Positions 2,452-42,814 of a stretch of DNA of 64,000 nt are shown here, piece by piece. The stretch is from Deltaproteobacteria bacterium (GTDB taxonomy: Bacteria > Desulfobacterota > Desulfuromonadia > Desulfuromonadales > BM103), in assembly GCA_024636215.1 (NCBI GenBank), contig JAGXHL010000081.1:1-64000 (forward strand). Reading direction: 5' to 3'. Under the pieces are notes generated by a model, which was not told the origin of the DNA, did not search any database, and saw only the letters and a program-made list of their open reading frames with translations. The translations under genes were made by a program, and so were the position numbers. Positions within the stretch are counted from its first letter, which is position 1, and the number at the start of each line of letters is the position of its first letter.

Positions 2452-2814
2452 ATGAGCCAGGATATTTGTCAAGTCAATGTGATCCATGAAGACCGGGTTG
2501 CCAAGGCGAATCAGATGCTTCCGGAAAGTAAACAGGTCGTTGGGCTTGCCGCCGTCTACAAGCTTCTCGGCGATCCAGGCCGGTTGAAAATCATGTTGGC
2601 CCTGGATGTCTGCGAGATGTGTGTGTGCGATCTGGCCGCTCTGCTGAACTCGACGCCTTCGGCAATTTCGCATCAATTACGACTGCTAAGGACTGCCGGA
2701 CTGGTGGAAGCTCGAAAGGAAGGCAAAGTTGTTTACTACAAAATCGGCGCAGAATTTGTTCAACCTTTCTTGAAAACAGGACATCATTACCTTGAGGTTT
2801 CAGAAACTGTATGA
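2452..2814 (+). CDS. ArsR/SmtB-family metal-sensing repressor
   Basis: This 120-residue winged-helix protein contains the ArsR family core (L-L-G-D-P-G-R-L-K-I-M-L-A-L, then the recognition helix S-A-I-S-H-Q-L-R-L-L). A cysteine cluster lies at the start of the metal-binding helix: C54, C57 and C59 in D-V-C-E-M-C-V-C-D-L. This resembles the ELCVCD metal box of CadC/ArsR/SmtB sensors, so it probably senses a thiophilic metal or Zn. The ribosome site AAGGAGGT lies 3 nt upstream of the ATG. Its stop overlaps the start of the efflux permease (ATGA), so the two are translationally coupled. The palindrome just upstream is the likely operator. Confidence 0.93.
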   Translation: MSQDICQVNVIHEDRVAKANQMLPESKQVVGLAAVYKLLGDPGRLKIMLALDVCEMCVCDLAALLNSTPSAISHQLRLLRTAGLVEARKEGKVVYYKIGAEFVQPFLKTGHHYLEVSETV

Positions 2815-26699: not shown

Positions 26700-29600
26700 A
26701 TGAGTAGAAAAGTCGCTCTCATCTCATATTCCTACCGCCTGCCCAACCCGACTGATGAGTCCCTTTGGGAGTGCCTGCTTGCTGGCAGGGATCTGGTGAC
26801 CAAGGTTCCGGAGAGCCGCTGGTCGCAAGATTTTTTCTTCCACCCGGACAGCAAGCACCCGGGGACAAGCTATTCTTTTGCCGCCGGGACCATTGGCGAC
26901 ATCTCCAGGTTTGATGCCGCCTTCTTCGGCATATCGCCACGCGAAGCAGCGAGCATGGACCCCCAGCAACGGATCATGCTGGAACTGACCTGGGAGGCCA
27001 TGGAGAACGCCGGTTTACCACCTGGAACTCTGCGTGGCAGCCGGACGCACGTTATCCTTGGTGCCTCATCGGCAGATTATTCCTATCGATTTGCTGATGA
27101 CCCTGCGTCAATCGACTCCCCCACAGCCACCGGCAATGCTGTCAGTATCCTCGCTAATCGACTCTCTTACTATTATGATTTAAAAGGGCCGAGCCTCGTC
27201 ATCGACACCGCCTGTTCCTCATCGCTGGTGGCCTTTCACCTTGCCAGTCAGGCCATTCTGAGCGGACAGGCTGAAGTAGCTATAACCGGCGGTATTTCCC
27301 TGCACCTCCACCCCCAAGGGTTTCTGGTATTCTCCAAGGCCGGCATGCTCTCGAAAACCGGCCGCTGCCACGTCTTCGATGAAGCGGCCGACGGTTATGT
27401 CCGTAGCGAGGGGGCCGGCATTTTCATCCTGAAAGACTACCAGCTGGCTCTCGCTGACGGCGATCCGATCCTTGCCATAGTGGCCGGCAGTGCAACCAAC
27501 ACCGACGGCCACAAGTCCAGCATGCCTGTACCGTGCGCAAAGTCCCAGGCACGCTTGATAGAAGAAGCATGTCAAGCGGCCGGCATCCATGCCGATGACA
27601 TTGATTATTTCGAAACCCATGGCACCGGAACCCAGGTCGGCGACCCGATTGAAACCGAAGCCATCGGCATGGCGATCGGTTCGAAAAGGAATAAGCCGCT
27701 ACCGATAGGATCGGTCAAGAGTAACCTGGGACACCTGGAGGCCGCCGCAGGGGTCGCTGGTCTTGTAAAGTCACTCCTTTCGCTCAACAACAGATGCATT
27801 CCCCCCTCTATCGGATTCAACAAGCCGAACCCGAACATTAAATTCACCGACTGGAAGCTCAAAGTGGTCACGGATGCGGAGCCCTTGCCTGAAACCGGAG
27901 AACTGACGATCGGCATCAACTCCTTTGGTTTTGGTGGCGCCAACGCCCATGTCATCCTGCAAAGCGCACCAGAGCAGAAGCAAGTTCCGGCGGCCTTCTG
28001 TCGGCCGGCAAAACCATTACCTCTGTTCATTTCCGCTCACAGCGCGGAGACATTGAAGCAGAACGCTAAAGCCCTTTCTCAGTGCTTACATGAAAATAAA
28101 GAAGTCCCTCTTTACGATCTGGCCTATTCCAGCAGATTTCATCGCCAGCAGCTCAGATTTGCGGCGCTGGTAGAAGCCAACTCTGTGGTCTCTGCAATCG
28201 ACAGGCTGAACTGGTTTGCCGAACAAGGCGAAGAATCCGACTGCGCTGAGCAGGGAGTCTATCTTCAAAAACATCTGCATCGGCCGTATGGCCCTGTCTT
28301 CGTCTACCCCGGCAACGGCTGCCAATGGCAAAAGATGGGGCAAAAACTGATTGAGGACAACTCGGTCTTCAAGCGTGCGGTGGAGGATATCGATCATTTT
28401 TTCATGCCCCTGGCTGGCTATTCGCTGGTCGCAGAACTGGCCGGTGGCAATGGGCCCAATCGCTTTGTCCTCACAGAGTTTGCTCAGCCGGCACTCTTTG
28501 CATTGCAAGTCGGCATAACCAGACTCCTGAAGGGTGAAGGAATTACCCCTGGAGCCGTCGTCGGCCACAGCGTCGGAGAAATCACCGCAGCCTGGGCCTC
28601 CGGAGCATTAAGCCTGCAGGATGCAGTCAAGGTCATTTACTATCGCAGTCTTCACCAGGGCAAGACCAGAGGCAAAGGGCAGATGACTGCCGTTGCAGCG
28701 GCCGAAGAAAATCTTATCAAACTGCTCGAGGAAGCACGTTTTGCCTCGATCAGTCTGGCAGGCATCAACAGCCCCAGAGGATGTACATTATCCGGGCCGT
28801 CGAACGCACTGGAGGTCTTTGAAAAGGAACTCTCCAACAGGGCCATCCCTTTCAAACGACTCGACCTCGACTACGCCTTCCATAGTCCGATTATGGACGA
28901 GATCCGAGCAGGACTCCTGAAGGACCTCTCCAGTTTAAAGCCCCGCTCAGAAAAGATCCCGTTTATATCAACAGTCACCGGAGAGCAGATCGACGGGCAA
29001 ACACTCAACGCGGATTACTGGTGGAGGAATATCCGCAAGCCGGTGCTGTTCAACCGTGCAGTCGACTCGCTTTGCGGAAAACAGTTCAATCTCTACGTCG
29101 AAATTGGTGGACATCCGATTTTACAGAACTATCTCACAGATATTCTGCAGAGCAGGGATCTGGAAGGAACCGTCATCCCCACCATCAGGCGTGAGGCAAA
29201 TACAGCCGAACAGATTACGGCGACGGCTCGCAAAATCGTGCTGGCCGGTTATGAGGACAGTCTCTCTCAATGGTTCCCGGTACCAGGTCGGTTCGTCGCG
29301 CTGCCTAATTATGTTTGGCAAAATGAACATCACTGGGTGCCGACAACACCGGAAGCCACGGGTCTCTTGCACCGTCACTATGTCCATCCCCTGTTAGGTT
29401 ATCCGCTGGCACAACATCAGAACACCTGGGAGGTCCTGCTCGACACAGAGAGAATCCCCTGGCTGAAGGATCACCAGGTTGGTGACAGCGTCGTTTATCC
29501 CGGCGCAGGTTTTACCGAAGCTGTCTGCGCGGCCGCCAATCTCGTCACGTCGAATGAAATCATCGAAGTTGAAGAGCTGGAAATCATTTCGCCCCTGCTC

Positions 29601-32600
29601 CTCAACGAACACAAAAAAGTCGTGCGGACAACCCTCGACCTAAGCTCGGGCAAGCTCACGATCAAGAGTCGGAACCAGAATCTTGACTCCAACTGGACAG
29701 ACAACCTGAAGGCGCGCATCGTAAAAGAACCGACCGGCAAAAGTCTGCAACAGCCTCAGCTCAAGCGACCCGACCGGGCTCCCGACTTTACGGCACAGGA
29801 ACATGCGAACATCACCCGTCGCGCCGGGCTCAACTACGGGCCCGCATTCAGCGCGATTCGCCATGGCTGGGCCGATCACGAATGCGCCATCGCGGAACTC
29901 AAGTTACAGGAGACTTGTCTGACCGACGCAGAGAGTTTCATTCTGCATCCGACATTACTCGATTGTGCTTTTCAAATGATCTGCCACTTGCTGCAGGCAA
30001 AAGAACTCGCGCATTCAGGGATCGCCTATGTTCCCGTCAGGATCGAACGCCTCCACGTGGCTGCGAACAAAAATCAGCCAACCTACGCTACAGCACGAAT
30101 TACCACCAAAGCCCCTTATTCGCTCACGGCAGAATTCACATTGTACGATGATAGCCATGCCGCCATAGTCCACCTGACAGGGGTCCGCTTCAAGGCAATC
30201 CGGACTAAAAAACTCTCGCAGAACAAACTGTCTTATCTCGACTACCACCTGACCCCGGTGCCTCGGGAGCTTGACTCGAAGAACGTCAATATTGAAGGAC
30301 AGGTCAAAGTCTCTTTGCTGCAGGCTCTTGAGCTCTGGCTAAAGGATGAACACCACCGGCATTTTGTCGCGGAAGTCGAGCCTTTGCTGGATGGATTAAG
30401 CTCTGCATATATGCGAGATGCCTTTACTTTGCTCGCTCATCGCTCAGGGGAGATTCTCGCCACTGAACTGGGGAAATATTCCCGGGACGAAAACCCCTGT
30501 GACACCATGTTGAACCAGTTGTTGGCAAATGGCGTTAACCAGGGAGATTTAAAGCAGACGGAAACCGGATGGCAGTTGACTTACGCCGGTCAGGAGGAGA
30601 TCTCCGCCGAAATAATCTGGAACACTTTGATCCGGGAGTATCCCGCCTATCTGCAGCCAATACTGAGTGTAGGTCGGCACGGCCAGCACTTGATGCAAAC
30701 CTTATCGGGGCCGAAGCAATCGACCATACTGGAGGGTCCTGAAGCACTATACGGCAAGCAGGTCACGGCCATTCAGAAGCAGGGCTTCGCATCACTTCTC
30801 GCCAACCAGCTCGGACAGGCAATCAAGCACTGCCAAAGCGCTTTAACCGAAGGACAAAGGCTGGGGATCGTCGAGTTAGCTCACAACGGCCCGCTGCTTG
30901 CCGAAAGCATCTGTTCCGGAATCGACTTTCACCTTTGCGACTATGGCTTTGCCAGCTCTTCTGAGAGTGCTCTCGAATCTGCTGCGGGACTGCAGAGGCA
31001 GCACCCCGAGATGAGAGTCCATCCCCTCGGCGAAACTCTGCCGCCCTCCCGGATGACCACACTACAGGCAAACAGCTGCCAGTTGGCAATAGTCAACCTG
31101 GACTTTCTGGACAGGACGGCTCTCAAAGCAGCCCTCTCCGGGCTCAGGAATTACCTCGCTGCGAACGCCGTCATTGTATTTCTCGGGCTGAACAAGGCCA
31201 ACTGGCTCAGCTTCATGCTCAATACAAGCAGGCAAGAGTATCCAGTTGAACAAATTTCACTGGCGGAAGTTGTTCAACTGGCTGAAGAGGCACAACTTCA
31301 ACCCTGTGAGGGCTTCTCCACCCGGGATATCGCTGCAACAGGGCCGTACCTTTTCATGGCCGAGGCAAAGCCGTCCAGCTGCGAGGAGCAGCCCAGGGAG
31401 ATCAATCGCGAGAGGCTCAAATGGCTGCTCGTTTGTTCGGAACAGGAAGAAGAGCAACAACTCGCCCATGAACTGGCCGAGGGTTTGACGGCAGCCCATC
31501 AGTCGGTCCAGACTCTGAGTATCACATCGCCTGCAACGCTGAAGGCGCAACTTGCCCAAACGGCAGACCTGTATGACCAGTATGAGAACATTGTCGTTAT
31601 TGCCGGCCTCGCCCAAAACGATAGACCAGAGTCAAGCCTGTTACGTTGCGAATTCGCCGCAAACACCATCCAGTTCTGTGAAGCCTGTGAGAACCCGCAA
31701 AAACTCTGGATTTTGACAAACGGCATGACGAGAATGTTTCCTTGTGACCAGGAACTTCAAGAGAGCTGCCTAGCTTCCGAGAATCAAAACCCTGAAGACG
31801 CCGCCCTATGGGGCTATGCGCGCACGGCCATGAACGAGGTCGGTCGAACCGCGATCAAGCTCATCGACCTGCCGCATGAGCTGACTCCGGCCTGCACAGA
31901 AGCGCTCTTCGCCGAACTGCTTTCACCGAGCAGTGAGGATGAACTGTGCTTGACCTGCAAAGGATCAAGGTACGCGCCGAGGCTCAGATATGAAGCTGCG
32001 CCCGAAGTCGTGCCGCCTGATACAGACACGGAAGAGACAGCAGCAACCCTGAGTTTTCAGAGCCCCGGTCAACTGCATAACCTGCTCTGGACGCCACGAC
32101 GACTCACACAACCGGCAGCTGATGAACTCGAAATCGAAGTATTGGCCACCGGACTCAACTTCCGGGATGTCATGTATACGCTCGGCCTGCTCTCTGATGA
32201 AGCGCTGGAAAATGGTTTTGCTGGAGCCAGTTTGGGCCTGGAGTTTTCCGGGCGAGTCCGCAGAACCGGCTCAAGGTTAAGCGACTTCAAAGTCGGCGAT
32301 ATGGTTGTCGGCTTCGGCTCGGCCAGTTTCAGCAGTCACTTGTTAACCAGGGCTGATGCCGTTACACGGATTCCAGAGCATATTGATCCGGTTGCAGCGG
32401 CCAGCATACCGACAGCCTTTTTTACGGCCTATTATGCACTGCACCATTGTGCACAATTACAGGCAAAGCAGAAAGTTCTTATCCACGGTGCCGCGGGTGG
32501 CGTCGGCATCGCAGCTATCCAAGTTGCCCAGTGGCTCGGCGCCGAAGTTTACGCAACCGCCGGAACAGAAGAAAAAAGGGATTTTTTGAAACTGCTGGGC

Positions 32601-34319
32601 GTCAAAAACATTTATGATTCGCGCTCGCTGGTCTTCGCGGAAGAAATTCTAGCCGATTCTCCCGATGGTGAAGGGGTCGATGTCGTTTTGAATTCTTTAG
32701 CCGGTGAAGCGATGCAAAGAAACTTCCGTGTCCTCAAGCCCTTCGGGCGTTTTCTGGAAATCGGCAAAAGAGATTTCTACGAGAACAGTGAAATCGGACT
32801 GCGACCATTCAGAAACAACATCAGTTACTTCGGTATTGACGCAGACCAGATCCGACTCAAATTGCCCGACCTGGCGAACCGTTTATTCAGAGAGCTGATG
32901 CAGCTTTTCCAGCAGGGGGAATTGCATCCATTACCTTACACGAGCTTCTCTGCAAGAAATGTTGAAGAGGCCTTCCGTTATATGCAGCATTCCAGGCAGA
33001 TCGGGAAAATCGTTGTCTCCGGATATGATGAGCTCGACCTGCCCCGACAGGTGTCTCAGGCAGAAAATCGTCAAGAGTACCGTTTCAGCAAGGACGCCAC
33101 CTACCTGGTGACCGGCGGCCTGTCAGGGCTGGGTTTGAGCCTGGCCCGATGGTTGGCAGAGAGGGGCGCCGGACACCTGCTGCTGGTCAGCAGACGAGGC
33201 CGCATCGAGGCAGAAGACCAGCAGAGTCTGCTGGAGATTGAGGCACTGGGAACCGTTGTTCATACTCAAAGCTGCGATGTCTCGAATCGAGCCTCTCTGC
33301 AGGAGCTCATAAGTCTCTGTAAAAAGGAGTTGCCGCCGTTAAAAGGTGTCATTCATGCAGCGGCATCAATAGACGACGGTCTGATCGTCAATCAGACCGG
33401 GCAACAGCTTGCAGCCGGGATGAACGCTAAAATTAACGGTGCCCGCTTCCTTCATGAGCTGACCATGGATCTGAATCTCGACCTGTTTGTGCTGCTCTCT
33501 TCAGCCACGACACTCTTCGGTAATCCCGGCCAGAGCGCTTACGTCGCGGCAAACCTCTGGATGGAAGCGTTAGCTGCCCACAGGCGCAATTTACAACTGC
33601 CAGTCACCTGTGTCCGGTTCAGCGCCGTTGGTGATGTCGGTTTTCTGGCCCGCAACCCGGAGATCAAAAAGAGCCTGCAGAAACGCATGGGAGGCACGGC
33701 CCTGAACTCAAAAACTGTCGTTGAGGTGATTGAAAAGATGCTGCTCTGTGACTGCCGTTCGACACTGGCATGCATGGAACTGGACTGGGCAACCCTCAGG
33801 CGCACTTTGCCCTGCTCCACGACGAACAAATTCAGTGAAATCAGTGCCGCCTACCACGACCTGAGCATGGCCCACGGCCCGCAGATGAATCTGCAGGAGA
33901 AACTCGCCGAGCTCACTGCCGAAGAACTGCACCTCGAACTGGTGCAATTCCTGACCGAAGAATTGAGCCAGATACTGCTGATCAGTGAGAACAAGATAGA
34001 CCCGAACCGCTCTCTCTACGAGATCGGGCTCGACTCGTTGATGGGGGTCGAATTATCGACCGTTCTGGAGGAAAAACTAGAAATCTCTTTACCGGTCATG
34101 CTGCTCAGTGAGAACCCCAGCTTAAATAAGCTCAGTCAGCATATCATCCAGAGCCTTACCGGCGACACAGAGGAGCAAAGTTCGCAAGCCGCCCGCCAGG
34201 TTGAACAGGCGGCCTCTCAGCATGGCATAGACCGGGAGATCGCCACCCCTGAGGCAATCGAGACGTTACTGGGAGAGCAAGTCGGCGTGCCCAAACCGGA
34301 GAAGATCATCAAGCACTGA
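26700..34319 (+). CDS. reducing type I polyketide synthase (KS-AT-DH-pseudoMT-ER-KR-ACP), no thioesterase
   Basis: A 2539-residue single-module PKS. The ketosynthase has C172 (D-T-A-C-S-S-S), H307 and H345. The acyltransferase has S624 (G-H-S-V-G-E). The dehydratase has H925 (D-H-Q-V-G) and D1088 (L-L-D-C-A-F-Q). Enoyl reductase spans about 1780-2090 (G-A-A-G-G-V-G-I-A), and ketoreductase about 2110-2380 (T-G-G-L-S-G-L-G, Y2281). The acyl carrier has S2446 (G-L-D-S-L-M-G). The region about 1190-1780 looks like a decayed methyltransferase: motif I reads V-E-L-A-H-N-G-P instead of E-x-G-x-G-T-G. A full reducing loop predicts a saturated acyl chain. No thioesterase is present, and the alpha-oxoamine synthase starts 5 nt downstream, the likely release enzyme. 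WcbR of Burkholderia capsule loci and fungal Fum1 are parallels. Confidence 0.95.
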   Translation: MSRKVALISYSYRLPNPTDESLWECLLAGRDLVTKVPESRWSQDFFFHPDSKHPGTSYSFAAGTIGDISRFDAAFFGISPREAASMDPQQRIMLELTWEAMENAGLPPGTLRGSRTHVILGASSADYSYRFADDPASIDSPTATGNAVSILANRLSYYYDLKGPSLVIDTACSSSLVAFHLASQAILSGQAEVAITGGISLHLHPQGFLVFSKAGMLSKTGRCHVFDEAADGYVRSEGAGIFILKDYQLALADGDPILAIVAGSATNTDGHKSSMPVPCAKSQARLIEEACQAAGIHADDIDYFETHGTGTQVGDPIETEAIGMAIGSKRNKPLPIGSVKSNLGHLEAAAGVAGLVKSLLSLNNRCIPPSIGFNKPNPNIKFTDWKLKVVTDAEPLPETGELTIGINSFGFGGANAHVILQSAPEQKQVPAAFCRPAKPLPLFISAHSAETLKQNAKALSQCLHENKEVPLYDLAYSSRFHRQQLRFAALVEANSVVSAIDRLNWFAEQGEESDCAEQGVYLQKHLHRPYGPVFVYPGNGCQWQKMGQKLIEDNSVFKRAVEDIDHFFMPLAGYSLVAELAGGNGPNRFVLTEFAQPALFALQVGITRLLKGEGITPGAVVGHSVGEITAAWASGALSLQDAVKVIYYRSLHQGKTRGKGQMTAVAAAEENLIKLLEEARFASISLAGINSPRGCTLSGPSNALEVFEKELSNRAIPFKRLDLDYAFHSPIMDEIRAGLLKDLSSLKPRSEKIPFISTVTGEQIDGQTLNADYWWRNIRKPVLFNRAVDSLCGKQFNLYVEIGGHPILQNYLTDILQSRDLEGTVIPTIRREANTAEQITATARKIVLAGYEDSLSQWFPVPGRFVALPNYVWQNEHHWVPTTPEATGLLHRHYVHPLLGYPLAQHQNTWEVLLDTERIPWLKDHQVGDSVVYPGAGFTEAVCAAANLVTSNEIIEVEELEIISPLLLNEHKKVVRTTLDLSSGKLTIKSRNQNLDSNWTDNLKARIVKEPTGKSLQQPQLKRPDRAPDFTAQEHANITRRAGLNYGPAFSAIRHGWADHECAIAELKLQETCLTDAESFILHPTLLDCAFQMICHLLQAKELAHSGIAYVPVRIERLHVAANKNQPTYATARITTKAPYSLTAEFTLYDDSHAAIVHLTGVRFKAIRTKKLSQNKLSYLDYHLTPVPRELDSKNVNIEGQVKVSLLQALELWLKDEHHRHFVAEVEPLLDGLSSAYMRDAFTLLAHRSGEILATELGKYSRDENPCDTMLNQLLANGVNQGDLKQTETGWQLTYAGQEEISAEIIWNTLIREYPAYLQPILSVGRHGQHLMQTLSGPKQSTILEGPEALYGKQVTAIQKQGFASLLANQLGQAIKHCQSALTEGQRLGIVELAHNGPLLAESICSGIDFHLCDYGFASSSESALESAAGLQRQHPEMRVHPLGETLPPSRMTTLQANSCQLAIVNLDFLDRTALKAALSGLRNYLAANAVIVFLGLNKANWLSFMLNTSRQEYPVEQISLAEVVQLAEEAQLQPCEGFSTRDIAATGPYLFMAEAKPSSCEEQPREINRERLKWLLVCSEQEEEQQLAHELAEGLTAAHQSVQTLSITSPATLKAQLAQTADLYDQYENIVVIAGLAQNDRPESSLLRCEFAANTIQFCEACENPQKLWILTNGMTRMFPCDQELQESCLASENQNPEDAALWGYARTAMNEVGRTAIKLIDLPHELTPACTEALFAELLSPSSEDELCLTCKGSRYAPRLRYEAAPEVVPPDTDTEETAATLSFQSPGQLHNLLWTPRRLTQPAADELEIEVLATGLNFRDVMYTLGLLSDEALENGFAGASLGLEFSGRVRRTGSRLSDFKVGDMVVGFGSASFSSHLLTRADAVTRIPEHIDPVAAASIPTAFFTAYYALHHCAQLQAKQKVLIHGAAGGVGIAAIQVAQWLGAEVYATAGTEEKRDFLKLLGVKNIYDSRSLVFAEEILADSPDGEGVDVVLNSLAGEAMQRNFRVLKPFGRFLEIGKRDFYENSEIGLRPFRNNISYFGIDADQIRLKLPDLANRLFRELMQLFQQGELHPLPYTSFSARNVEEAFRYMQHSRQIGKIVVSGYDELDLPRQVSQAENRQEYRFSKDATYLVTGGLSGLGLSLARWLAERGAGHLLLVSRRGRIEAEDQQSLLEIEALGTVVHTQSCDVSNRASLQELISLCKKELPPLKGVIHAAASIDDGLIVNQTGQQLAAGMNAKINGARFLHELTMDLNLDLFVLLSSATTLFGNPGQSAYVAANLWMEALAAHRRNLQLPVTCVRFSAVGDVGFLARNPEIKKSLQKRMGGTALNSKTVVEVIEKMLLCDCRSTLACMELDWATLRRTLPCSTTNKFSEISAAYHDLSMAHGPQMNLQEKLAELTAEELHLELVQFLTEELSQILLISENKIDPNRSLYEIGLDSLMGVELSTVLEEKLEISLPVMLLSENPSLNKLSQHIIQSLTGDTEEQSSQAARQVEQAASQHGIDREIATPEAIETLLGEQVGVPKPEKIIKH

Positions 34320-34324
34320 GAATC

Positions 34325-35683
34325 ATGATGAAAATTTTAAGTAACAAAGAGAAATTCCAACTGATTCAGAATACCCTGGGCAAAAAACTGCAAGGAGTGA
34401 CGGCGGCTCCGCCTACACCCTCTTACCCGGCGCTTTCCAAACCATCATCAGCAGAGATTCCACAGAAGCATTACCGTTTTGAGCTGAACCCGGCTTACCA
34501 GCAAATCCAGATCATCAACAAGGGTGCGCAGCAGTTAGGCGTTGAAAACCCCTTTTTCCGTGTTCACGATGGTAATGCCGGTGCCACGACCTCGATTCAG
34601 AACAAAACACTGATCAACTTTGCCAGCTACAATTACCTGGGTCTGTCCGGTCACCCGCAGGTCAATCAGGCTGCCCATGATGCGGTTGAGCGCTACGGAA
34701 CATCGGTATCGGCCAGCCGACTGGTTGCAGGAGAAAGGCCTGTCCACCGTGAGCTGGAAAGAGCAATAGCCGACCTTTATCAAGTCGACGATGCGGTTGT
34801 CTTTGTCAGTGGCCACGCGACCAATGTTTCGACCATCGGCCACCTCTTCGGTCCAAAAGACCTTGTCCTGCATGATGAATTCATTCACAACAGCATCCTT
34901 GTCGGTATCCAGCTCTCCGGAGCCAAACGCATGCCCTTTCCGCATAACGATCTGAACAGCTTGAAGAAAATCTTGAGGGAAGCGAGAGGCGCCTATGAAA
35001 AGGTCCTGATTGCCGTTGAAGGGCTCTATAGCATGGACGGAGACTACCCCGACCTGCCGACCCTGATCGAGATCAGGAATGAGCATAAGTGCTTTCTGAT
35101 GGTCGATGAGGCTCATTCCCTCGGGGTGATGGGAGCAACCGGCAAAGGGCTGCGTGAGCATTTCTCCTGTAACGCCGGCGACGTCGACATCTGGATGGGA
35201 ACCTTGAGTAAAAGTTTTGCCGGTTGCGGAGGCTTCATCGCCGGTTGCAGCGCTCTGATTGAGCAGCTGAAATTCCTTGCGCCCGGTTTTATCTACAGCG
35301 TCGGCATTCCGGCCCAGGTCGCCGCCCCCGCCCTTGAGGCGTTGCGAATCATGCTTGCGGAACCGGAGCGGGTGCAGCGTCTGCAGAAACTGTCCGGATT
35401 TTTCCTGAGTGAAGCGAAAACCCGCGGTTTTGACACCGGTCTAAGTCAGGGTTTCGCGATTATCCCGATCATAACCGGAAGCTCCCTCAGCGCAGCCCAG
35501 CTCTCAGACAGGTTGCTGCATCGCGGCATCAACGTGCAGCCGATTATCTACCCGGCCGTTGCCGAAAAATCGGCCAGGCTCAGGTTCTTCGTTACTTCTG
35601 AGCACACCGGGGAACAGATCGTGGAAACCCTTGATGCTCTGAGTGAAGAGTTGCAGACAATCAACGGGCCTCCACAAATCTAA
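34325..35683 (+). CDS. alpha-oxoamine synthase (serine palmitoyltransferase / AONS-like)
   Basis: A 452-residue PLP-dependent fold-type I enzyme. The Schiff-base lysine is K296 in G-T-L-S-K-S-F-A-G. PLP contacts lie in D-E-A-H-S-L-G, and the entry motif is F-A-S-Y-N-Y-L-G-L-S-G. It condenses an acyl thioester with an amino acid and releases CO2. BioF, Spt and WcbT/Fum8 are relatives, and sequence alone does not fix the amino acid. An ~80-residue N-terminal extension precedes the core and may dock the PKS carrier domain (inference). It lies 5 nt after a PKS lacking a thioesterase, so it probably offloads the polyketide as a 3-keto sphingoid-like base. Confidence 0.88.
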   Translation: MMKILSNKEKFQLIQNTLGKKLQGVTAAPPTPSYPALSKPSSAEIPQKHYRFELNPAYQQIQIINKGAQQLGVENPFFRVHDGNAGATTSIQNKTLINFASYNYLGLSGHPQVNQAAHDAVERYGTSVSASRLVAGERPVHRELERAIADLYQVDDAVVFVSGHATNVSTIGHLFGPKDLVLHDEFIHNSILVGIQLSGAKRMPFPHNDLNSLKKILREARGAYEKVLIAVEGLYSMDGDYPDLPTLIEIRNEHKCFLMVDEAHSLGVMGATGKGLREHFSCNAGDVDIWMGTLSKSFAGCGGFIAGCSALIEQLKFLAPGFIYSVGIPAQVAAPALEALRIMLAEPERVQRLQKLSGFFLSEAKTRGFDTGLSQGFAIIPIITGSSLSAAQLSDRLLHRGINVQPIIYPAVAEKSARLRFFVTSEHTGEQIVETLDALSEELQTINGPPQI

Positions 35684-35732
35684 AGCCAGCAGCCCACCCT
35701 TATCTCCCGTGCAAAACCTTCATGCAATGAGC

Positions 35733-36728
35733 TCATCTCTTACCCTGTGCCAGGAACCATTCAGAGGATTGTTGCATTGATTCCTGGAAAGCTCTCGTAG
35801 TGACCGGACCGCAGACATCGACTATTTTTTTAGCACTATGGCCACAGGTTCTGCCGAAGATACGCACCACCAAAGGGTGCAGCAACGGCTCCCTTTTGAT
35901 CCCCAGGCTTTTGTGAAGGATGCCTAGCGTTGTTGCGATGCCCGCAGCAACAGGGAAAGGCAAATTCACCACAAGTCCCTTGCCATCGATATCTTCTCTT
36001 AATCTCTCAATGAATTCTTTCCAGCTGACATCATAGCTGTCGCGAATGTTGTAGACCTCGTTCAGCGTGAGCGGCGTTTCAGCGGATTTAATGATGGTCT
36101 GGACCAGATTATCGATATCAATAATCCCGGCATTGCAAGCACCTCCATCGACGGTCAACATAAGACCAGCTTCAAGCGCTCTGCCGATCCTTTCGATAAA
36201 CGGGCTGTGCGGTCCGATCACATTGCACGGCCGCAAGATCGTATAGGGCAGCCCGGACCGGAGGTTGTCCTGCTTAATCAATTCCTCGCCGAGGATTTTA
36301 CTTCTGCCATAATAGAAGCCGGCATCATCAAGAGGCGCTGTTTCATCGCATGCTTCAGCAGGATAGCCATAGACGTCAACGGTGGAAAGATGGACCAACC
36401 GGGGCAGGCTGCTATTGGCTTTATGGATGGCTCGCAACAGGTGTTCAAGGCCCATGACATTGGCTTCGTAATAGGAGTCCCAAGTGTCCCAGGTCTTCAA
36501 ATTGGCCGCACAGTGATAAACGATACCAACCTGCCCTGTTGCCTCGACCAGCGCATTCTCATTATCCAGGGCGCCGACAATGATCCTGCAAGAGTCCCTG
36601 AGGGCGTCACTGAGGCGACTTTTGTCCCTGACCAGCAAGCGCACCGTCTGACCCGATGCGACGAGAACTTCAGCGAGGCGCCTGCCGATAAATCCGGTGG
36701 CCCCGGTGACCAATACGTCTTTTGTCAT
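35733..36728 (-). CDS. NAD-dependent epimerase/dehydratase-type reductase (CerR-like candidate)
   Basis: A 331-residue extended SDR protein. The nucleotide motif is G-A-T-G-F-I-G, the catalytic serine lies in L-S-T-V-D-V-Y-G, and Y140/K144 come from Y-Y-G-R-S-K. Such proteins are usually annotated as sugar epimerases. In Caulobacter, however, the 3-ketosphinganine reductase CerR is an epimerase-type protein in a cluster with serine palmitoyltransferase. Here the gene converges on the oxoamine synthase 49 nt away, so reduction of a 3-keto base is a fair proposal; a sugar-nucleotide function for capsule synthesis remains possible. It is the last gene of the long leftward run. Confidence 0.82.
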   Translation of the reverse strand: MTKDVLVTGATGFIGRRLAEVLVASGQTVRLLVRDKSRLSDALRDSCRIIVGALDNENALVEATGQVGIVYHCAANLKTWDTWDSYYEANVMGLEHLLRAIHKANSSLPRLVHLSTVDVYGYPAEACDETAPLDDAGFYYGRSKILGEELIKQDNLRSGLPYTILRPCNVIGPHSPFIERIGRALEAGLMLTVDGGACNAGIIDIDNLVQTIIKSAETPLTLNEVYNIRDSYDVSWKEFIERLREDIDGKGLVVNLPFPVAAGIATTLGILHKSLGIKREPLLHPLVVRIFGRTCGHSAKKIVDVCGPVTTRAFQESMQQSSEWFLAQGKR

Positions 36729-36780
36729 AAGCCTATGGTTTCCGGTCTATTCGATGTAATTTGTCAGTGACATCCTCACC

Positions 36781-36825
36781 AGTACAACGGGTCACAGGAC
36801 AGCGGGTCACAATACAGCGGGTCAA
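36781..36825. repeat. three 15-bp tandem repeats over the end of the acyltransferase gene
   Basis: Units at 36781-36795, 36796-36810 and 36811-36825 share the core ACAGCGGGTCAC with few changes. The last unit contains the stop codon of the GNAT-fold gene (TGA, 36822-36824, minus strand). Like the livK array, it looks like a local duplication seeded at a stop codon. Confidence 0.85.
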
Positions 36826-37988
36826 GCCCTTATCCGGGTAACGGCTTCCCCTTTAAAAACCCGTTTCGTGGGATATTGCTCTGATTTATGAAGAAAGTTA
36901 TAAATGGGTGACAGCAGGGGATTGAAAAAAGGGATGGTGAGCCGGATGGCAATGTATATGGGAACAAGCTTGGCCCCGAAGTCCTGCTTGATCTGATAAG
37001 TCGTTAGCCCCATTTCAACCTTTCTGGCACCGACGGAGATCGCCGTTTCAATGATTGTATGGATGATGTAGTAGTAAAGGCTGTCTCTTTCAGAGATATT
37101 CCGACCGACGTATAGCCAGCGGAGAAGATCACCATCCTGTAAAAGCAGCACATGCCCGAGAAGTTGTCCTTCCGCATAAAAAAGCAGAGCTTTCGAATGC
37201 GGCCCCATATTTTGTGAAATCTCGGTATAAAATTCCGGCGTCAACACCTCCCTTTTAAGCTCTTTGGCCTTCTCATGAACGACATGCCACTGCCTGCACA
37301 ATTCTACGGATAATTCGCTGAAATCATCAACAAGTTGGTGGGTTATATTATTTTCCCTGTTGATATTCAGGTGCTTGAATAATTTATGCCGGTAATGACT
37401 GCGCATTGCTGCATGATATTCATCAATACAAGTCCATCTAACAGGAAGATAGGTATTGGGCAGTGATGGCAGCCAGGAAAAACCAAGGCTTGTCAGCTCT
37501 TCTTTATATTCTCCTACGGCATGATCGCTTTCAAAGTCCCGGATTATAGTCATTAAACATCTTTCTTTGATCGATAACCGGGCCAGGATTTTTTTCAGCT
37601 CAAACAAGAATCTACTTTTATCAATAGTATTATCAATCAGGAACTGCGGCGTGTTGATGGTTACCGGCGAGCCACATTCGGCGATATTTATTTTAAAAAA
37701 ATTCGGTATTGCTTTTCGAATGAGAGACAGGATGTTTTTCAAAAAAGGGCCGGAAAAAATGGCCAGATCGGTTCTTATTTTACAAAAAGGGATCAGCGCA
37801 ACGGGCAGATCCTGACGGTAGAAAACAATGTATTTACAGACAATATCCTGCATCTTCGCGTTTTCTATTGTTTGCCAGAAACTGCGACTCAGTGTAATTG
37901 AGCTGTGCGCACAAAGCTGGTCCCAATCCTCTCGCGGGACATCGTCACACCGGTCATAGATAACGTGTACGAACTTTTCGTCTCCCAA
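36822..37988 (-). CDS. GNAT/FemAB-fold acyltransferase, copy 1 (BioF2-like domain)
   Basis: A 388-residue protein of the large GNAT-fold group containing FemAB-like and BioF2-like acyltransferases. The family core is visible as R-S-H-Y-R-H-K-L-F-K-H-L, then A-L-L-F-Y-A-E-G-Q-L-L-G-H-V-L-L-L-Q and K-V-E-M-G-L-T-T-Y-Q-I-K. It clearly resembles the gene at 39489-40631 along its whole length (shared W-L-Y-V-G-R, F-Y-A-E-G, D-S-L-Y, G-A-x-x-x-P-x-Y). Inference: N-acylation of the sphingoid-like base, as proposed for bacterial ceramide synthases of this fold, or acylation of a capsule sugar. It lies between kpsS and the reductase gene. Confidence 0.75.
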   Translation of the reverse strand: MGDEKFVHVIYDRCDDVPREDWDQLCAHSSITLSRSFWQTIENAKMQDIVCKYIVFYRQDLPVALIPFCKIRTDLAIFSGPFLKNILSLIRKAIPNFFKINIAECGSPVTINTPQFLIDNTIDKSRFLFELKKILARLSIKERCLMTIIRDFESDHAVGEYKEELTSLGFSWLPSLPNTYLPVRWTCIDEYHAAMRSHYRHKLFKHLNINRENNITHQLVDDFSELSVELCRQWHVVHEKAKELKREVLTPEFYTEISQNMGPHSKALLFYAEGQLLGHVLLLQDGDLLRWLYVGRNISERDSLYYYIIHTIIETAISVGARKVEMGLTTYQIKQDFGAKLVPIYIAIRLTIPFFNPLLSPIYNFLHKSEQYPTKRVFKGEAVTRIRA

Positions 37989-38003
37989 CAGCCACCTCTA
38001 ACT

Positions 38004-38146
38004 AGTTTTCGTCTGGAAACGGTCCTTTTCCGCAATCTCTGCGTCAATCGGCGGATTTGATTGTGCGGCGTAAAGCACTACGCCTCCGCTCAAATCCTTG
38101 ATTTCCTTGACCTTGCTAAAAATTGCTCGTTTCCAGATCGAAAACT
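38004..38146. repeat. 143-bp long imperfect palindrome (MITE/REP-like element)
   Basis: The outer arms AGTTTTCGTCTGGAAACG (38004-38021) and CGTTTCCAGATCGAAAACT (38128-38146) are inverted copies with one indel. Nested inside are GCAAT/ATTGC, GGATTTGA/TCAAATCC and a GGCGTA-aagcac-TACGCC hairpin. The whole sequence can fold into one long stem. It lies between two capsule genes and carries a spurious 60-codon frame. The form suggests a non-autonomous palindromic repeat element that may occur elsewhere in the genome. Confidence 0.6.
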
Positions 38147-38190
38147 GCACTGTGTCCATCAGGACACTCCGCATGGGCACGGTGCAGTTT
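38142..38190 (-). terminator. hairpin after kpsS
   Basis: On the minus strand AAACTGCAC (38190-38182) pairs with GTGCAGTTT (38150-38142). An inner GTGTCC-TGAT-GGACAC stem lies between them, and T-rich sequence (TTTTCG) follows. The kpsS stop codon is at 38189-38191. It probably ends or weakens transcription here, reducing read-through to the two downstream lipid genes. Confidence 0.55.
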
Positions 38191-39409
38191 AAACACCTAC
38201 TTCCTGATCATAGAGTTTTTTTGCAAACGCGTTCACGCCACGGGTTAAGCCGGGCTCTTTGAAAAAAACTCCCCTTATATGCATCTTTGCCGCAATGAAA
38301 TTTACAAAATGGGCAACATTTTCACTATCAGGTCGCTCAGGGTTCGCCCAGAATTTATCCAGGCTGCCCTGATAGGTTAATCCCTGTATATCATAAATGG
38401 CGTCGCTTAAGTTTTTCACCGCACAACCCAACTGGAGGGCCCTCAGACCAGCGGTGCTATTAACAGTGACAAGCCCCCTGGCATGCTTCAGACACTTATC
38501 GATGCTGGTTCCACCATCGACAAAACGGACTCTGCCATCAACACCGTACTCACTTGAGAGCCTGTCGATCATTGTTTGCCAGTGTCTGATGCCTAAATCG
38601 CGAGGGTGGTTCTTGATAACGAGATCGCAATCGCTGCTGCAATGCTTTGAGAATGAGGCAATAATTTCCCGCAAAGGAGCGATCATATCCTGATAGTTTG
38701 AATAAGAGACAATTTGAAAATCATGTTCAAGCTGCATGGCGACCAGAAAGTAATTCAGTTGACCGGCTTCCATGCGATCAACAAATCGCTTAGTCTCCTT
38801 ATAATGATACAGCAGTTTCAGCCACTTCAAGATTGAATAGCAATAGCCCTTGATCGGGTTCGGTCTCATGTCGCTTCTGCGGTAGCAAGGAAATAAGACC
38901 GGGTTGAAAAGGTTACTGCCGCAGTAAAGCAGATCATTGAGGATCATCCTGATTTCACTGTCAGGATACAGATTGTCCAGAGAGACAACAGGCAGATGAC
39001 GATTAAGAGCTGATATCTCCTTAATATTTTTTGGCAACAAAGAGTTGCCGTTCATGCCATCCCGCTCCAGGGCAATCCAGTCTGGCCGTAGATAGCCAAA
39101 GTCAGTGACGATCACTCGAATCCCCCTGTCCTTGGCCACCTGGACAGCGGTTTTATGGTATTTACGCTGTTCACCGACCAGAACGAGATCAGTCACCGCG
39201 TTTTCATCGTAAAAAGTCTTGATGTAGTCAGGCCACTCCGAGGGCTTGCCCCTGAACGAAAAACAATTTTCACCACTCCAGAAAAGCCGGTCGCCCATAC
39301 ACAGATTGATTCGACTCACCCTGCAGTTGCGGTCCTCCAGGCATTTTCCAACACGTTTAAAAAAAGGGCTCTGCATGCCCTGCAGAAAGAGAAAATGTGG
39401 TTGATTCAT
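38189..39409 (-). CDS. kpsS: KpsS-type capsule Kdo-linker transferase
   Basis: A 406-residue protein of the KpsS/LipB capsule family. The N-terminus H-F-L-F-L-Q-G-M-Q-S-P-F-F is diagnostic, and later motifs include K-N-H-P-R-D-L-G and V-N-S-T-A-G-L-R-A-L. KpsS starts the beta-Kdo linker on the lipid anchor of ABC-exported capsules and KpsC extends it. The ATG at 39407-39409 gives the usual KpsS start; a GTG at 39481 with AAGGTG upstream would add 24 residues. Unusually, it sits between two paralogous GNAT-fold acyltransferase genes. Normally KpsS acts on phosphatidylglycerol lipid; here a ceramide-like acceptor is possible (inference). Confidence 0.87.
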   Translation of the reverse strand: MNQPHFLFLQGMQSPFFKRVGKCLEDRNCRVSRINLCMGDRLFWSGENCFSFRGKPSEWPDYIKTFYDENAVTDLVLVGEQRKYHKTAVQVAKDRGIRVIVTDFGYLRPDWIALERDGMNGNSLLPKNIKEISALNRHLPVVSLDNLYPDSEIRMILNDLLYCGSNLFNPVLFPCYRRSDMRPNPIKGYCYSILKWLKLLYHYKETKRFVDRMEAGQLNYFLVAMQLEHDFQIVSYSNYQDMIAPLREIIASFSKHCSSDCDLVIKNHPRDLGIRHWQTMIDRLSSEYGVDGRVRFVDGGTSIDKCLKHARGLVTVNSTAGLRALQLGCAVKNLSDAIYDIQGLTYQGSLDKFWANPERPDSENVAHFVNFIAAKMHIRGVFFKEPGLTRGVNAFAKKLYDQEVGV

Positions 39410-39488
39410 CAGTAACTCTTGAATATGACGACGCCCGCCGGCATAACGGTTGACAGGGTTAAAAGAGGTAGCGAATAACACTTTTTAT

Positions 39489-40631
39489 TTACACCTTAAA
39501 CACTTCTTTGTTGATTGGGGCTTTAGTTTTCAGGATTTTTCTTACCACCAGGTCAATAAGCTGATCAGGCCCAGGCAGATTGTATTTTAAGGCATAATAT
39601 AGTGGCTCGATTCTGGCACCGAGATCTCTCTTGACGTCGTACGTGGTTGGCCCGCAATCTATGCTGTCGACATTAAGCGCTATCCCGACCTCGATAACTT
39701 TATACATCATCAACTGATACAGACTATCATTGGCTTTTTTTTCTCGGCCGACATACAGCCAGCGAAGAATTTTATGATCCTGTAAGACCAGGGCGTGCCC
39801 GACCATTATCCCTTCGGCGTAAAACAATAAGGCCTTCGCATCAGCGTTTAATTTAAGACAAATATTTTTATAGAAATCTGCATTGATAATTTCACCTTTA
39901 CTGCCTTGTGCTCCTTCGTGCACGGTGAGCCACTGTTTGGCAAACTCTTCTGAAAAGCCGGCAAAATCTTCGACAAGAATACAGGTAACATTGCGTTCTG
40001 CGTTTATCTTCAAGTGCTTGTTAAGCTTACTGCGATAATAACTTTTCATGCTGTCCAGGTAGTCATCAATGCTTTGCCATTTCACATCGACATACGCCCC
40101 CGGGACACTCTCAAGCATCGACCAGCCCTTAAAAATGGCGCTTTCAGAATATTGCCTAAGCAACGCCCCGTCGATATCTTTAATCCCGATAAAACGAACC
40201 TTGTTTGCTCTGGCAATGTCTTGAAGGGCGCTCTCCAGGCAGGCCAAAACATCCTCCTCGTTATCTTCGACTGCGGCCAGAAACGGTGGCAACTGGGTAT
40301 TTAAAGGTGTGCCGCATTCCAGTAGTTTCACTCTCAGGAACTCAGGAAAAAGTTTGCGGATAAGTTGGCTGGCGCTTGCAAGGGTTCTGTTCAGATACTC
40401 ATTTATATCGACTTTAAAAAAATAACAGGCGGCAAGACAAACAGGCTTGTCCTGCTGAGAAATAATGATGTAATGAAAATCGTAAAAACCGCCAATGCCT
40501 GATTCTTCAATGACACGCCAATAGTCCGAGGTATAAACCAGGGACGCCTTCACGGCGAGTTTGTCCCACGCTTTGGTCGGAACGCGATGAATCCCTTGAT
40601 ATGTGCGGTAGGTTATCCCCTGGTCAGGCAT
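39489..40631 (-). CDS. GNAT/FemAB-fold acyltransferase, copy 2
   Basis: A 380-residue paralogue of the protein at 36822-37988, in the same order of motifs: K-S-Y-Y-R-S-K-L-N-K-H-L, A-L-L-F-Y-A-E-G-I-M-V-G-H, W-L-Y-V-G-R-E and D-C-G-P-T-T-Y-D-V-K. Two diverged copies flanking kpsS suggest two different acylations, for example N-acylation and O-acylation of the same lipid base, or acylation of lipid and of sugar. The substrate is not deducible. The gene ends just before kpsS and follows kpsC by 72 nt in the same direction. Confidence 0.75.
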   Translation of the reverse strand: MPDQGITYRTYQGIHRVPTKAWDKLAVKASLVYTSDYWRVIEESGIGGFYDFHYIIISQQDKPVCLAACYFFKVDINEYLNRTLASASQLIRKLFPEFLRVKLLECGTPLNTQLPPFLAAVEDNEEDVLACLESALQDIARANKVRFIGIKDIDGALLRQYSESAIFKGWSMLESVPGAYVDVKWQSIDDYLDSMKSYYRSKLNKHLKINAERNVTCILVEDFAGFSEEFAKQWLTVHEGAQGSKGEIINADFYKNICLKLNADAKALLFYAEGIMVGHALVLQDHKILRWLYVGREKKANDSLYQLMMYKVIEVGIALNVDSIDCGPTTYDVKRDLGARIEPLYYALKYNLPGPDQLIDLVVRKILKTKAPINKEVFKV

Positions 40632-40703
40632 GATTTCTACGACTCAAAGTTAAGGAAGAATATTGACTGCCAAGGTTGTGCAGGATGGCTGTTTCGATCT
40701 CGA

Positions 40704-42755
40704 TCAACCAAGATTCCACTGCAACAGGCCACGCATCCGGCTGATGATTCTCTGACATTGACCGGCAGCAACTGTCCGCTGCGCAGCCTTCTGCTGCTTA
40801 AGAATTGCGACCGCCCTTTCCACTGAAATCAGGACTTTACGCTTTGGGTCAATATACAGGGGATAGTCGATCAGCGCACCGGCAACCAGCTCGTCGAGAC
40901 TGATCGGTCGCGTTCTGCGCGGACACGGGTGACGATCTTGCGTCAGGCCCCAGCCGGCATAGAACGGCAAGCCGTAGGTGGTAACGACTTTGCCCCGCAG
41001 CAGAGCCTCAAAACCGGTCAGGCTGGTCAGCGTATGCACCTCGTCGCACGCCTCAAGACAGGAGGCGATCGACAATCCGGTTACGATCTGATCACAGTAT
41101 GCCAGAGCCTCGTTTTCAGGGATGCTCCCGATCCGATTACCGCTGACCACATCCGGGTGCGGCTTATAGACAACATATGCGTCCGGACTACTCTCCCTGA
41201 CCGCCTGCAGCAAAGCCAGGTTGGTTCGGATATCGATACAACCCAGACGAATCGAGGCATCATCCTCGACCTGCCCGGGGACAAGAATGATCGTCTGACC
41301 TTTACAGGCCTCAACCGGAACCGGGACATCTTCACCAACAGAATATTTACTGAGCCGCTCCTCCAGTAAAACGCGACGTAAATGCCTGGCTCTGTCCAAA
41401 CTTTGCTCGCCGACCCCCTGCTGCAGCAAGGCTTCAAGATCGCTGGCACGCTGCGGATCATAATAAATCCCCTGCTGATCCAGCACCAGAGAAAGCGGCA
41501 ATACGTAATCGGAACCCAGCCCGACCGAACGCACAAAACCGTCTTCCATGCTGAGCAGAGGAATTTCCGGGTGCTTGCGACCGGAGTCCGAACCTGCGCT
41601 CTGCCATCCCCCCCAACGCATGACTGCATCGGCGCCGACAAGCGCATCGGTTGCAACGGTAAATTTCAAGTTGAGATCAAGGGGTTGCAACAGCTTGCAG
41701 ATATACCGTTTCTTCCACCAGAAAAAATTGCTGCAAGCAACCTGCGAACCCGGAATTTTTGCCCGGAGTTGATTGTAGCGGACAAAGTAATCGATGACAT
41801 CTTCGATCTCTCCAGCCTGCCCTGTCTGCGGATCGAGGTATCTCGGATAGAGGATACAGGCCGCGGCAAAGAGTTCATGGAGAGAAGGTTTTGCCGTCCT
41901 GCGAGGGCAGGTCTGAACATCTTCAGTCAGCCCCCAGCCCGCATAAAAAGGCAGCCCATAACACTTGACCGGCTTCTCGCAGAGCAAGGCCTCAAAACCA
42001 AGCTGTGAGCTGACTACGTAAACCCTGTCGACCTTCTCCAGCAAGGAGATGGGGTTAACATCTTCCGAAAGCAGGTGGATGCGTGATGAGCAGAGATCAA
42101 GCGCCGAAAGGTAGCCACGTTTTTTGCCTGCGTTAACATCCGGGTGGGTTTTGACAATAATGTCTGCCTGCGGATTGTCTTCGAGAGCGTCTGCAAGCAT
42201 CTGCTTGAATGTGGTTTGATCGGCATAGCCTAAAGTCACTGAGCAGTCAGCGCAGGTTTGATCGACAACCAGGATTTTGCACGTATGCTGACCGGGCAAC
42301 GCTCTGTTCAGCGCTCTGGCGTGGTTGTATTTCGAGATCTGATATGTGCGAATCTTCTGGATCAGACTGTCAGCACGCGACAGTAATGCGGGGGATTGCC
42401 AGCCGCTGTCCTGCAACATCATTTCCAAACGGGAGGGCTTGTTTGCATCGTAATAAATCCCCAGGTCGTCAAGGATCAGGGACAAGGGGGCGCCACCCTG
42501 GACGCCGGGTTGCAGGGATCTGTAGAAACCATCCTCCAGCGACAGATAAGGGAGGTTCTGTTTATTGGCGAACTGTCGCGCTTTTTGAGTGTTCGGCTTG
42601 CCGCCCCAACCAACCAGTTGTTGACAACCATGTCCCGCACCACGGACAGCTAATTTCAGCCCCTCGCTTTCCGGAAACAGTGCGGCAAAGTTCTTCAACC
42701 GCATGATGCCTCGCGAAAAGGTCAGAGATTTTCCGTGCAGTTCAGGTAAAGGCAT
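40704..42755 (-). CDS. kpsC: KpsC-type capsule poly-Kdo linker synthase
   Basis: A 683-residue protein with the duplicated KpsC layout. Two halves each carry G-W-G-G-(K/W), L-(E/M)-D-G-F-x-R-S, L-S-L-(I/V)-L-D-(D/Q)-x-G-I-Y-Y-D and, near the end, T-x-G-L-P-F-Y-A-G-W-G-L-T. KpsC contains two retaining beta-Kdo transferase modules that build the alternating poly-Kdo linker between lipid anchor and capsule polymer. It marks the locus as a group 2 (ABC-exported) capsule system together with KpsS, KpsT, KpsE and the KpsD-like protein. It is the full family length. Confidence 0.93.
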   Translation of the reverse strand: MPLPELHGKSLTFSRGIMRLKNFAALFPESEGLKLAVRGAGHGCQQLVGWGGKPNTQKARQFANKQNLPYLSLEDGFYRSLQPGVQGGAPLSLILDDLGIYYDANKPSRLEMMLQDSGWQSPALLSRADSLIQKIRTYQISKYNHARALNRALPGQHTCKILVVDQTCADCSVTLGYADQTTFKQMLADALEDNPQADIIVKTHPDVNAGKKRGYLSALDLCSSRIHLLSEDVNPISLLEKVDRVYVVSSQLGFEALLCEKPVKCYGLPFYAGWGLTEDVQTCPRRTAKPSLHELFAAACILYPRYLDPQTGQAGEIEDVIDYFVRYNQLRAKIPGSQVACSNFFWWKKRYICKLLQPLDLNLKFTVATDALVGADAVMRWGGWQSAGSDSGRKHPEIPLLSMEDGFVRSVGLGSDYVLPLSLVLDQQGIYYDPQRASDLEALLQQGVGEQSLDRARHLRRVLLEERLSKYSVGEDVPVPVEACKGQTIILVPGQVEDDASIRLGCIDIRTNLALLQAVRESSPDAYVVYKPHPDVVSGNRIGSIPENEALAYCDQIVTGLSIASCLEACDEVHTLTSLTGFEALLRGKVVTTYGLPFYAGWGLTQDRHPCPRRTRPISLDELVAGALIDYPLYIDPKRKVLISVERAVAILKQQKAAQRTVAAGQCQRIISRMRGLLQWNLG

Positions 42756-42794: not shown

Positions 42795-42814
42795 CCCCGG
42801 CTAAATTACCGGGG
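42795..42814 (-). terminator. hairpin over the stop codon of the subtilase gene
   Basis: CCCCGG (42795-42800) and CCGGGG (42809-42814) pair around an 8-nt loop that holds the TAA stop (42806-42808, minus strand). On the minus strand a run of five Ts follows about 8 nt later. Stability is modest; a partial terminator or mRNA 3' stabiliser before kpsC. Confidence 0.45.

Follow-up and report, generated by a model that had tools for sequence, protein, structure and literature searches.

A conserved polyketide synthase/oxoamine synthase module linked to kpsS and kpsC in a Desulfuromonadales bacterium, with a possible role in making a ceramide-like capsule lipid

According to the accessible part of its description, the SgaAB cluster of Pseudomonas fluorescens MYb115 makes C24-C28 sphinganines; SgaB has serine palmitoyltransferase (SPT) activity and condenses L-serine with acyl-CoA, phosphoglycerol sphingolipids have been proposed from mass, a KDSR-type short-chain dehydrogenase/reductase (SDR) lies within the cluster, and 6101 homologous clusters, mostly from Burkholderia, were counted (PMC12134224). 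The same type of polyketide synthase (PKS), RkpA or WcbR, belongs to the capsule loci rkp-1 of Sinorhizobium and wcb of Burkholderia, and for rkp-1 a specific lipid carrier has been proposed (accessible text of PMC4881576 and PMC3908369). Here we describe a locus of Deltaproteobacteria bacterium (Desulfuromonadales; assembly GCA_024636215.1, contig JAGXHL010000081.1) that combines a PKS and an alpha-oxoamine synthase (AOS) with an extended SDR, two GNAT-type acyltransferases (GNAT_A and GNAT_B) and the capsule enzymes KpsS and KpsC. The whole stretch of 64,000 nucleotides that was analyzed is referred to as the window. Like SgaAB-type clusters, it carries a monomodular reducing PKS without thioesterase that is directly paired with an AOS; like rkp/wcb-type clusters, it has PKS, AOS and a KpsS-type gene within a capsule locus; and like group 2 capsule loci, it encodes KpsS, a dual-module KpsC and a KpsE-like export protein.

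The PKS/AOS/SDR/GNAT set is a conserved module tied to kpsS/kpsC, and this association goes beyond chance. We regard the chances as evenly balanced that the locus makes a ceramide-like capsule lipid, for which a PKS/AOS-derived base would be reduced by the SDR, N-acylated by a GNAT protein and furnished with 3-deoxy-D-manno-oct-2-ulosonic acid (Kdo) by KpsS/KpsC. A similar pathway had been proposed in an earlier note made from the letters of this DNA alone, whose gene set was confirmed in families and coordinates by the open reading frames and by family searches.

Conservation and linkage to kpsS and kpsC

Profiles of the GNAT and SDR families were searched across 300 genomes of one order. The GNAT profile matched 26 of them at E<=1e-3, four at 529-579 bits, a count of four that omits 20 matches at <=131 bits and two fusion proteins (174 and 195 bits). 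The same four genomes were those with an SDR match at E<=1e-90, and in them SDR and GNAT genes adjoin each other and/or KpsS or KpsC. An AOS of the window type was found in 19 of the 300 genomes (E<=1e-90), among them all four with GNAT and SDR (hypergeometric probability 1.2e-5). A second sample of 61 relatives of genome G163, which shares genomes with the first, contained seven genomes with a strong GNAT match, seven with AOS and five with both (7e-5), where the count of seven GNAT genomes omits an eighth match at 131 bits (G035); AOS without a strong GNAT was found in G798 and G022. Phylum-wide the module is rare, as a strong GNAT at E<=1e-30 was present in one of 398 genomes, the centre genome itself.

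The survey of co-occurrence with kpsS/kpsC that the earlier note had suggested as a check found the set conserved in four of the 300 genomes and in three more clusters. In these three further genomes PKS, KpsS, SDR and GNAT are clustered, with AOS present in two; the gene orders are PKS-AOS-(PF00198 acyltransferase)-GNAT-SDR-KpsS in L196, AOS-PKS-KpsS-SDR-GNAT-KpsC in L198, and PKS-KpsS-SDR-GNAT-KpsC in L197, where the contig stops in the PKS. The SDR adjoins KpsS in all eight GNAT-type genomes in which an SDR was seen (G163, G082, G220, G002, G803, G806, G802, G804), and in the window GNAT_B sits between the two. AOS and GNAT lie on the same contig about 33 kb apart in G163 and about 40 kb apart in G220. 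At least 10 assemblies are apparently common to the lists of GNAT and SDR relatives (best 120 each), which is a further hint of linkage. Two records in them, P0008 and P0128, are 81% identical to GNAT_A and the SDR and probably mark another locus of the window type in a closely related organism. Several GNAT-type loci (L103, L104, L106, L197, L198) encode a KpsC of 339-358 amino acids whose match to the window KpsC is confined to the C-terminal half of the latter.

Enzymes of the putative lipid pathway

Judged from its domains, the PKS probably assembles an acyl chain that is long, saturated and bound to its own acyl carrier protein (ACP). Motif patterns that we take to be valid for PKS and AOS identified DTACSSS, HGTGT, GHSVG, YAFH, HQVGDSVVYP, GAAGGVG, SAYVAAN and GLDSL in the PKS. 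The glycine pattern of the ketoreductase (KR) was missed by this search, yet TGGLSGLG stands in the translation. No methyltransferase motif was found in the PKS by the motif search and no thioesterase by the domain search, and about 600 amino acids between dehydratase (DH) and enoylreductase (ER) are without a Pfam match.

In a midpoint-rooted AOS tree, which was built without PfSgaB, the window AOS falls within a 24-row clade of PKS-paired AOS (support 100/100) that neighbors the Spt clade. Spt and GNAT-fused AOS form one group (97/90), and a branch supported at 95/92 parts this group and the PKS-paired clade from BioF, Kbl and others. The window AOS is not a member of the Spt clade and scores under the cut-offs of all three Spt models of NCBIfam; the closest solved structure is a serine palmitoyltransferase (219 bits).

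One scan, which looked for identical short peptides from the window AOS, yielded 68 loci, mostly from Burkholderiaceae. When these were searched by tblastn with proteins of the window and its neighbors, 65 matched the PKS, 46 an enzyme of family PF00884, 40 an LpxC paralogue, 13 a classical SDR (100-bit threshold) and nine KpsS or KpsC, while an SDR or GNAT of the window type was found in none of the 68 within the stretches searched. In L013 (8992-9909, +) and in most Burkholderiaceae loci the genes for PKS and AOS are separated by the LpxC paralogue; such a deacetylase has no evident place in a sphingoid pathway. A PF00198-type (E2-like) acyltransferase directly follows AOS in L196 (12193-13095, +), L002 (10974-11804, +) and L157 (approximately 7903-8721, -), and L004 and L131 also have one after AOS; no match to it was detected by tblastn in the window.

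GNAT_A and GNAT_B are paralogues with 34% identity over 378 columns, of which GNAT_B is the nearer to the single GNAT of other loci. A second acylation is possible, because other loci have one GNAT as compared with two in the window, and some of them have a PF00198-type acyltransferase after AOS. The AlphaFold model of GNAT_A (predicted local distance difference test, pLDDT, 89.6) adopts a fold of the FemX/MprF/N-myristoyltransferase type. Neither BLAST nor hidden Markov model searches gave a significant match between the GNAT proteins and YghO, the bacterial ceramide synthase (bCerS) of E. coli, and a sequence search of solved structures with GNAT_A, the GNAT profile and bCerS gave no meaningful match. 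An AlphaFold model of bCerS was not used, since its alignment was too shallow (mean pLDDT 55.8). In two loci a GNAT domain is fused in a single open frame to an Spt-like AOS (L107, 8303-10699, +; L108, 8680-11208, +; 798 and 842 amino acids). With 174 and 195 bits against the GNAT profile in two genomes, these domains are distant relatives of the window GNATs, and each fusion is possibly a long-chain-base synthase and N-acyltransferase in one protein. A strong Spt match was present in 16 genomes, in one of which it exceeds the family cut-off. Of these genomes 12, all alphaproteobacterial, were examined for canonical bCerS, and it was present in all 12. Canonical bCerS was found neither in the four GNAT-type genomes examined (of nine) nor in the two fusion genomes.

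The SDR is distantly homologous to E. coli CerR (24.8% identity, 63.5 bits), and its profile picks up five CerR proteins at 2.5e-28 to 2.1e-17. Its best NCBIfam match is HpnA, far under the cut-off, and the first three families are identical for canonical E. coli CerR. The heptose epimerase RfaD is placed outside in the SDR tree, on a very long branch under a midpoint root. An ordinary sugar-nucleotide epimerase would be a weak reading of this protein. GNATs and SDR may work like bCerS and CerR though they stand outside those families. The ceramide-like pathway of the earlier note is supported in so far as the AOS stands beside the Spt clade, apart from BioF and Kbl, and GNAT relatives are fused to Spt-like AOS; kinship of the GNATs with bCerS and a place of the SDR in the CerR clade were not supported.

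We propose that the iterative PKS provides a long, saturated, ACP-bound acyl chain and that AOS, by analogy with SgaAB, would free this chain by condensing it with an amino acid, of which serine is the likeliest, to give a 3-keto long-chain base. Linkage, fold and the AOS fusions are consistent with the SDR reducing the 3-keto group and with one or both FemAB-type GNATs acylating the amine, in either order. In Caulobacter, acylation is thought to precede reduction and CerR is periplasmic (accessible text of PMC11087976). KpsS would then place the first Kdo onto the lipid, KpsC would lengthen the linker of Kdo residues, and the capsule would leave the cell through the ABC exporter. Kdo transfer onto a ceramide-like lipid is the least certain of these steps.

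Tailoring sets, KpsS and competing explanations

The PF00884 enzyme of locus L007 was matched (E<=1e-20, 25 genomes) in none of nine GNAT-type genomes, as opposed to 10 of 16 AOS genomes without a strong GNAT (Fisher 0.003; 0.007 when the GNAT side is limited to the seven genomes whose AOS is confirmed), where one of the ten matches is weak (G022, 91 bits) and one of the 16 genomes, G110, has an 89-bit GNAT match. In the window, tblastn gave no match to this membrane enzyme at 1e-6, nor was the classical SDR of L007 matched there at E<=1e-6 and 100 bits; the window SDR is of the extended type, as distinct from the KDSR-type classical SDR (SgaC). The contrast between the nine and the 16 genomes suggests two alternative tailoring sets for a PKS/AOS base, namely SDR/GNAT and, in rkp-type loci, a classical SDR and/or the PF00884 enzyme. 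We take the classical SDR to occupy the position of RkpH and the PF00884 enzyme that of RkpI. With hydrophobic segments near its N-terminus and 42 of 970 bits against the LtaS model, the PF00884 enzyme is presumably a phosphoglycerol transferase. Its active site would be expected to be extracytoplasmic, which sits uneasily with a cytoplasmic KpsS.

The KpsS proteins of all nine GNAT-type loci, the window among them, form one clade (99/97; 100% of 200 bootstrap trees) apart from nine KpsS of eight rkp-type loci, and none of 500 shuffles gave a value as low. KpsS of L012, an rkp-type locus from Alcaligenaceae, groups with gammaproteobacterial rkp-type KpsS. By contrast, the AOS of eight GNAT-type rows (the window and seven genomes) require four changes against 15 others and are monophyletic in none of 200 bootstrap trees; they are still more clustered than chance, as seven of 500 shuffles were as low. 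KpsS thus seems to track the tailoring set more closely than AOS does, and we take this as a hint, short of proof, that the tailored lipid is the substrate of KpsS. It is tempting, if tentative, to extend this to many Proteobacteria: the capsule anchor might be a PKS-made sphingoid lipid instead of phosphatidylglycerol, completed by one or the other of two sets that exclude each other, and KpsS would be suited to the lipid in question. Classical SDR and PF00884 enzyme would then lead to a mimic of lyso-phosphatidylglycerol, and reduction plus N-acylation, as in the window, to a ceramide. If this is true, a common function would underlie the gene clusters sga, rkp and wcb.

Several observations weigh against a ceramide-like capsule lipid. 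KpsS is described as acting on phosphatidylglycerol (accessible text of PMC12220298). Occurrence of the PKS/AOS pair independently of kps genes, which the earlier note had named as a counter-argument to its own proposal, was indeed encountered: only nine of the 68 loci have a match to window-type kpsS or kpsC and 59 do not, within stretches of at most about 10 kb on each side; kps genes can stand 33-40 kb from AOS, beyond these stretches. Among NCBIfam models, BioF scores highest for the window AOS (337.5 bits; cut-off 426), with those for Spt behind it, and the GNAT fold matches FemX and MprF better than N-myristoyltransferase. Membership of the GNATs in the bCerS family, with which the earlier note had suggested comparing them, had to be dropped since no homology was detectable (hhalign probability 0.2%, as compared with 0.3% for an unrelated control). 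Membership of the SDR in the CerR clade was not upheld either: the two form separate clades, CerR grouping with HpnA-like proteins (81/82), in a weak, midpoint-rooted tree with flagged long branches and only eight of 24 inner branches starred. The starred branches of the AOS tree alone leave a single GNAT-type group possible. Two of the seven GNAT genomes among the 61 relatives, G804 and G806, lack an AOS match, although that of G806 may be lost to assembly because the contig stops inside a PKS adjoining KpsS. Finally, the GNAT-type genomes come from related members of a single order, and for this reason the statistics overstate their independence.

The lipid may be made as proposed and yet be a free outer-membrane sphingolipid like that of SgaAB, KpsS and KpsC retaining phosphatidylglycerol and the genes being neighbors since both serve the envelope. 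The 59 stretches without a kps match favor such an arrangement, as does the absence of both 'capsul' and 'kps' from the accessible main text on SgaAB (PMC12134224); we nevertheless judge it unlikely, given that the SDR adjoins KpsS in eight of eight genomes and that the KpsS clade follows the tailoring type. The FemX/MprF-like fold would also suit aminoacyl transferases, and if the GNATs were these or acylated capsule sugars while the SDR had a nucleotide sugar as its substrate, lipid synthesis would be left to PKS and AOS alone. This appears quite improbable in view of the fusion of GNAT relatives to Spt-like AOS, the three NCBIfam families shared by the SDR and canonical E. coli CerR, the outside position of RfaD (again on its very long branch, with midpoint root), and the restriction of strong GNAT and SDR matches to AOS genomes in the order sample, to which the 61 relatives add two GNAT exceptions.

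A product other than a ceramide or an anchor is conceivable too, such as an N-acyl amino ketone or amino alcohol formed by SDR and GNAT from the AOS amino ketone. The amino acid chosen by AOS and the order and substrates of SDR and GNAT leave room for this, and BioF is the best, sub-cut-off model of the AOS. However, SgaB, which the AOS tree does not include, prefers serine (accessible text of PMC12134224), and linkage to kps is conserved, so that we hold such a product to be very unlikely.

Locus layout and comparison with known systems

The AOS begins 5 nucleotides past the PKS stop. Both genes are on the plus strand and converge with the minus-strand run of SDR, GNAT_B, KpsS, GNAT_A and KpsC (Table 1). 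Past KpsC this run goes on with a subtilase, glycosyltransferases and other genes and reaches the three export genes at the foot of Table 1 (export protein, KpsE-like protein, ABC ATPase fragment), and the gene set is therefore regarded as one end of a capsule cluster. KpsS scores 223.5 bits in NCBIfam against a cut-off of 600.

Table 1. Genes of the PKS/AOS module and of capsule export in the window
Feature	Coordinates	Strand	Evidence
Iterative reducing type I PKS, 2539 aa	26700-34319	+	Ketosynthase (KS)-acyltransferase (AT)-DH-ER-KR-ACP by Pfam and motifs
AOS	34325-35683	+	Motifs SKS, VDEAHS, DEFIHNS; PKS-paired AOS clade
Extended SDR, presumed 3-keto reductase, CerR-like in role	35733-36728	-	PF01370, 115 bits
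GNAT_B, FemAB-type acyltransferase, TTG start	36822-37988	-	PF04339/PF13480, 23 and 21 bits, under both Pfam cut-offs
KpsS-type Kdo transferase, GTG start	38189-39481	-	PF05159, 199.5 bits
GNAT_A, paralogous FemAB-type acyltransferase	39489-40631	-	PF04339/PF13480, 42 and 23 bits, over cut-offs
KpsC-type dual-module beta-Kdo transferase	40704-42755	-	PF05159, 331.7 bits
Outer-membrane polysaccharide export protein	60526-62328	-	Poly_export/SLBB
KpsE/BexC/CtrB-like inner-membrane export protein	62339-63493	-	TIGR01010, 246 bits; cut-off 437.5 not reached
ABC-transporter ATPase fragment, window edge	63490-63948	-	Polysaccharide-export type by NCBIfam; no Pfam match

The subtilase (42806-45355, -) adjoins KpsC within the capsule gene run and carries C-terminal Ig-like/PKD-type domains. 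A protein of 1534 amino acids (55886-60490, -) combines a long coiled-coil-like stretch with two GT2 glycosyltransferase matches. Elsewhere in the window, a fusion of MFS, PlsC-type acyltransferase and AMP-binding domains (11512-14916, +) resembles LplT/Aas, and an ArsP_1 permease split over two frames (2811-3275 and 3471-3869, both +) is apparently a broken gene.

The earlier note had considered PKS-fed bases with a reductase/acyltransferase set inside a Kps locus to be undescribed. For the bases themselves this was too wide, as PKS-fed sphinganines were shown in 2025 (PMC12134224) and PKSs of rkp/wcb stand in capsule loci (PMC3908369, PMC4881576; accessible text in each case). Among the literature matches listed, no description was found of PKS/AOS sphingoid lipids joined with KpsS capsules, nor, in the accessible text of these matches, a structure of the lipid ascribed to the rkp/wcb genes. 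The window module is a conserved combination of parts of known kinds that was not found described as a system among the same matches. A link between sga and capsules would turn the old question of the rkp/wcb-type capsule anchor into a simple in vitro question about the KpsS acceptor. If the proposed pathway is true, phosphatidylglycerol would not be the universal acceptor of KpsS/KpsC, and a second acyltransferase family without detectable kinship to bCerS would make ceramides.

With SgaAB(C) the window shares a monomodular iterative PKS and an AOS, for which, in the accessible part of the description, sphinganine product and SPT activity are shown in the case of SgaAB (PMC12134224). It differs by having an SDR of the extended type, where SgaAB(C) has a KDSR-type one, as well as two FemAB-type GNATs and KpsS/KpsC. 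The classical SDR and/or PF00884 enzyme of rkp-type loci were not found in the window, where extended SDR and GNATs are present instead. The Spt/bCerS/CerR systems of Caulobacter and E. coli BL21 likewise comprise an AOS, to whose Spt clade the window AOS is next, an acyltransferase and an extended SDR. In the window, however, the chain would come from a PKS and not from AasR/AcpR, the GNATs are non-homologous to bCerS by profile, and the SDR belongs to another clade. With group 2 capsule systems the locus has in common KpsS, a dual-module KpsC, and the KpsE-like and export proteins; unlike them, it carries dedicated lipid-synthesis genes, and its KpsS/KpsC acceptor may differ from phosphatidylglycerol.

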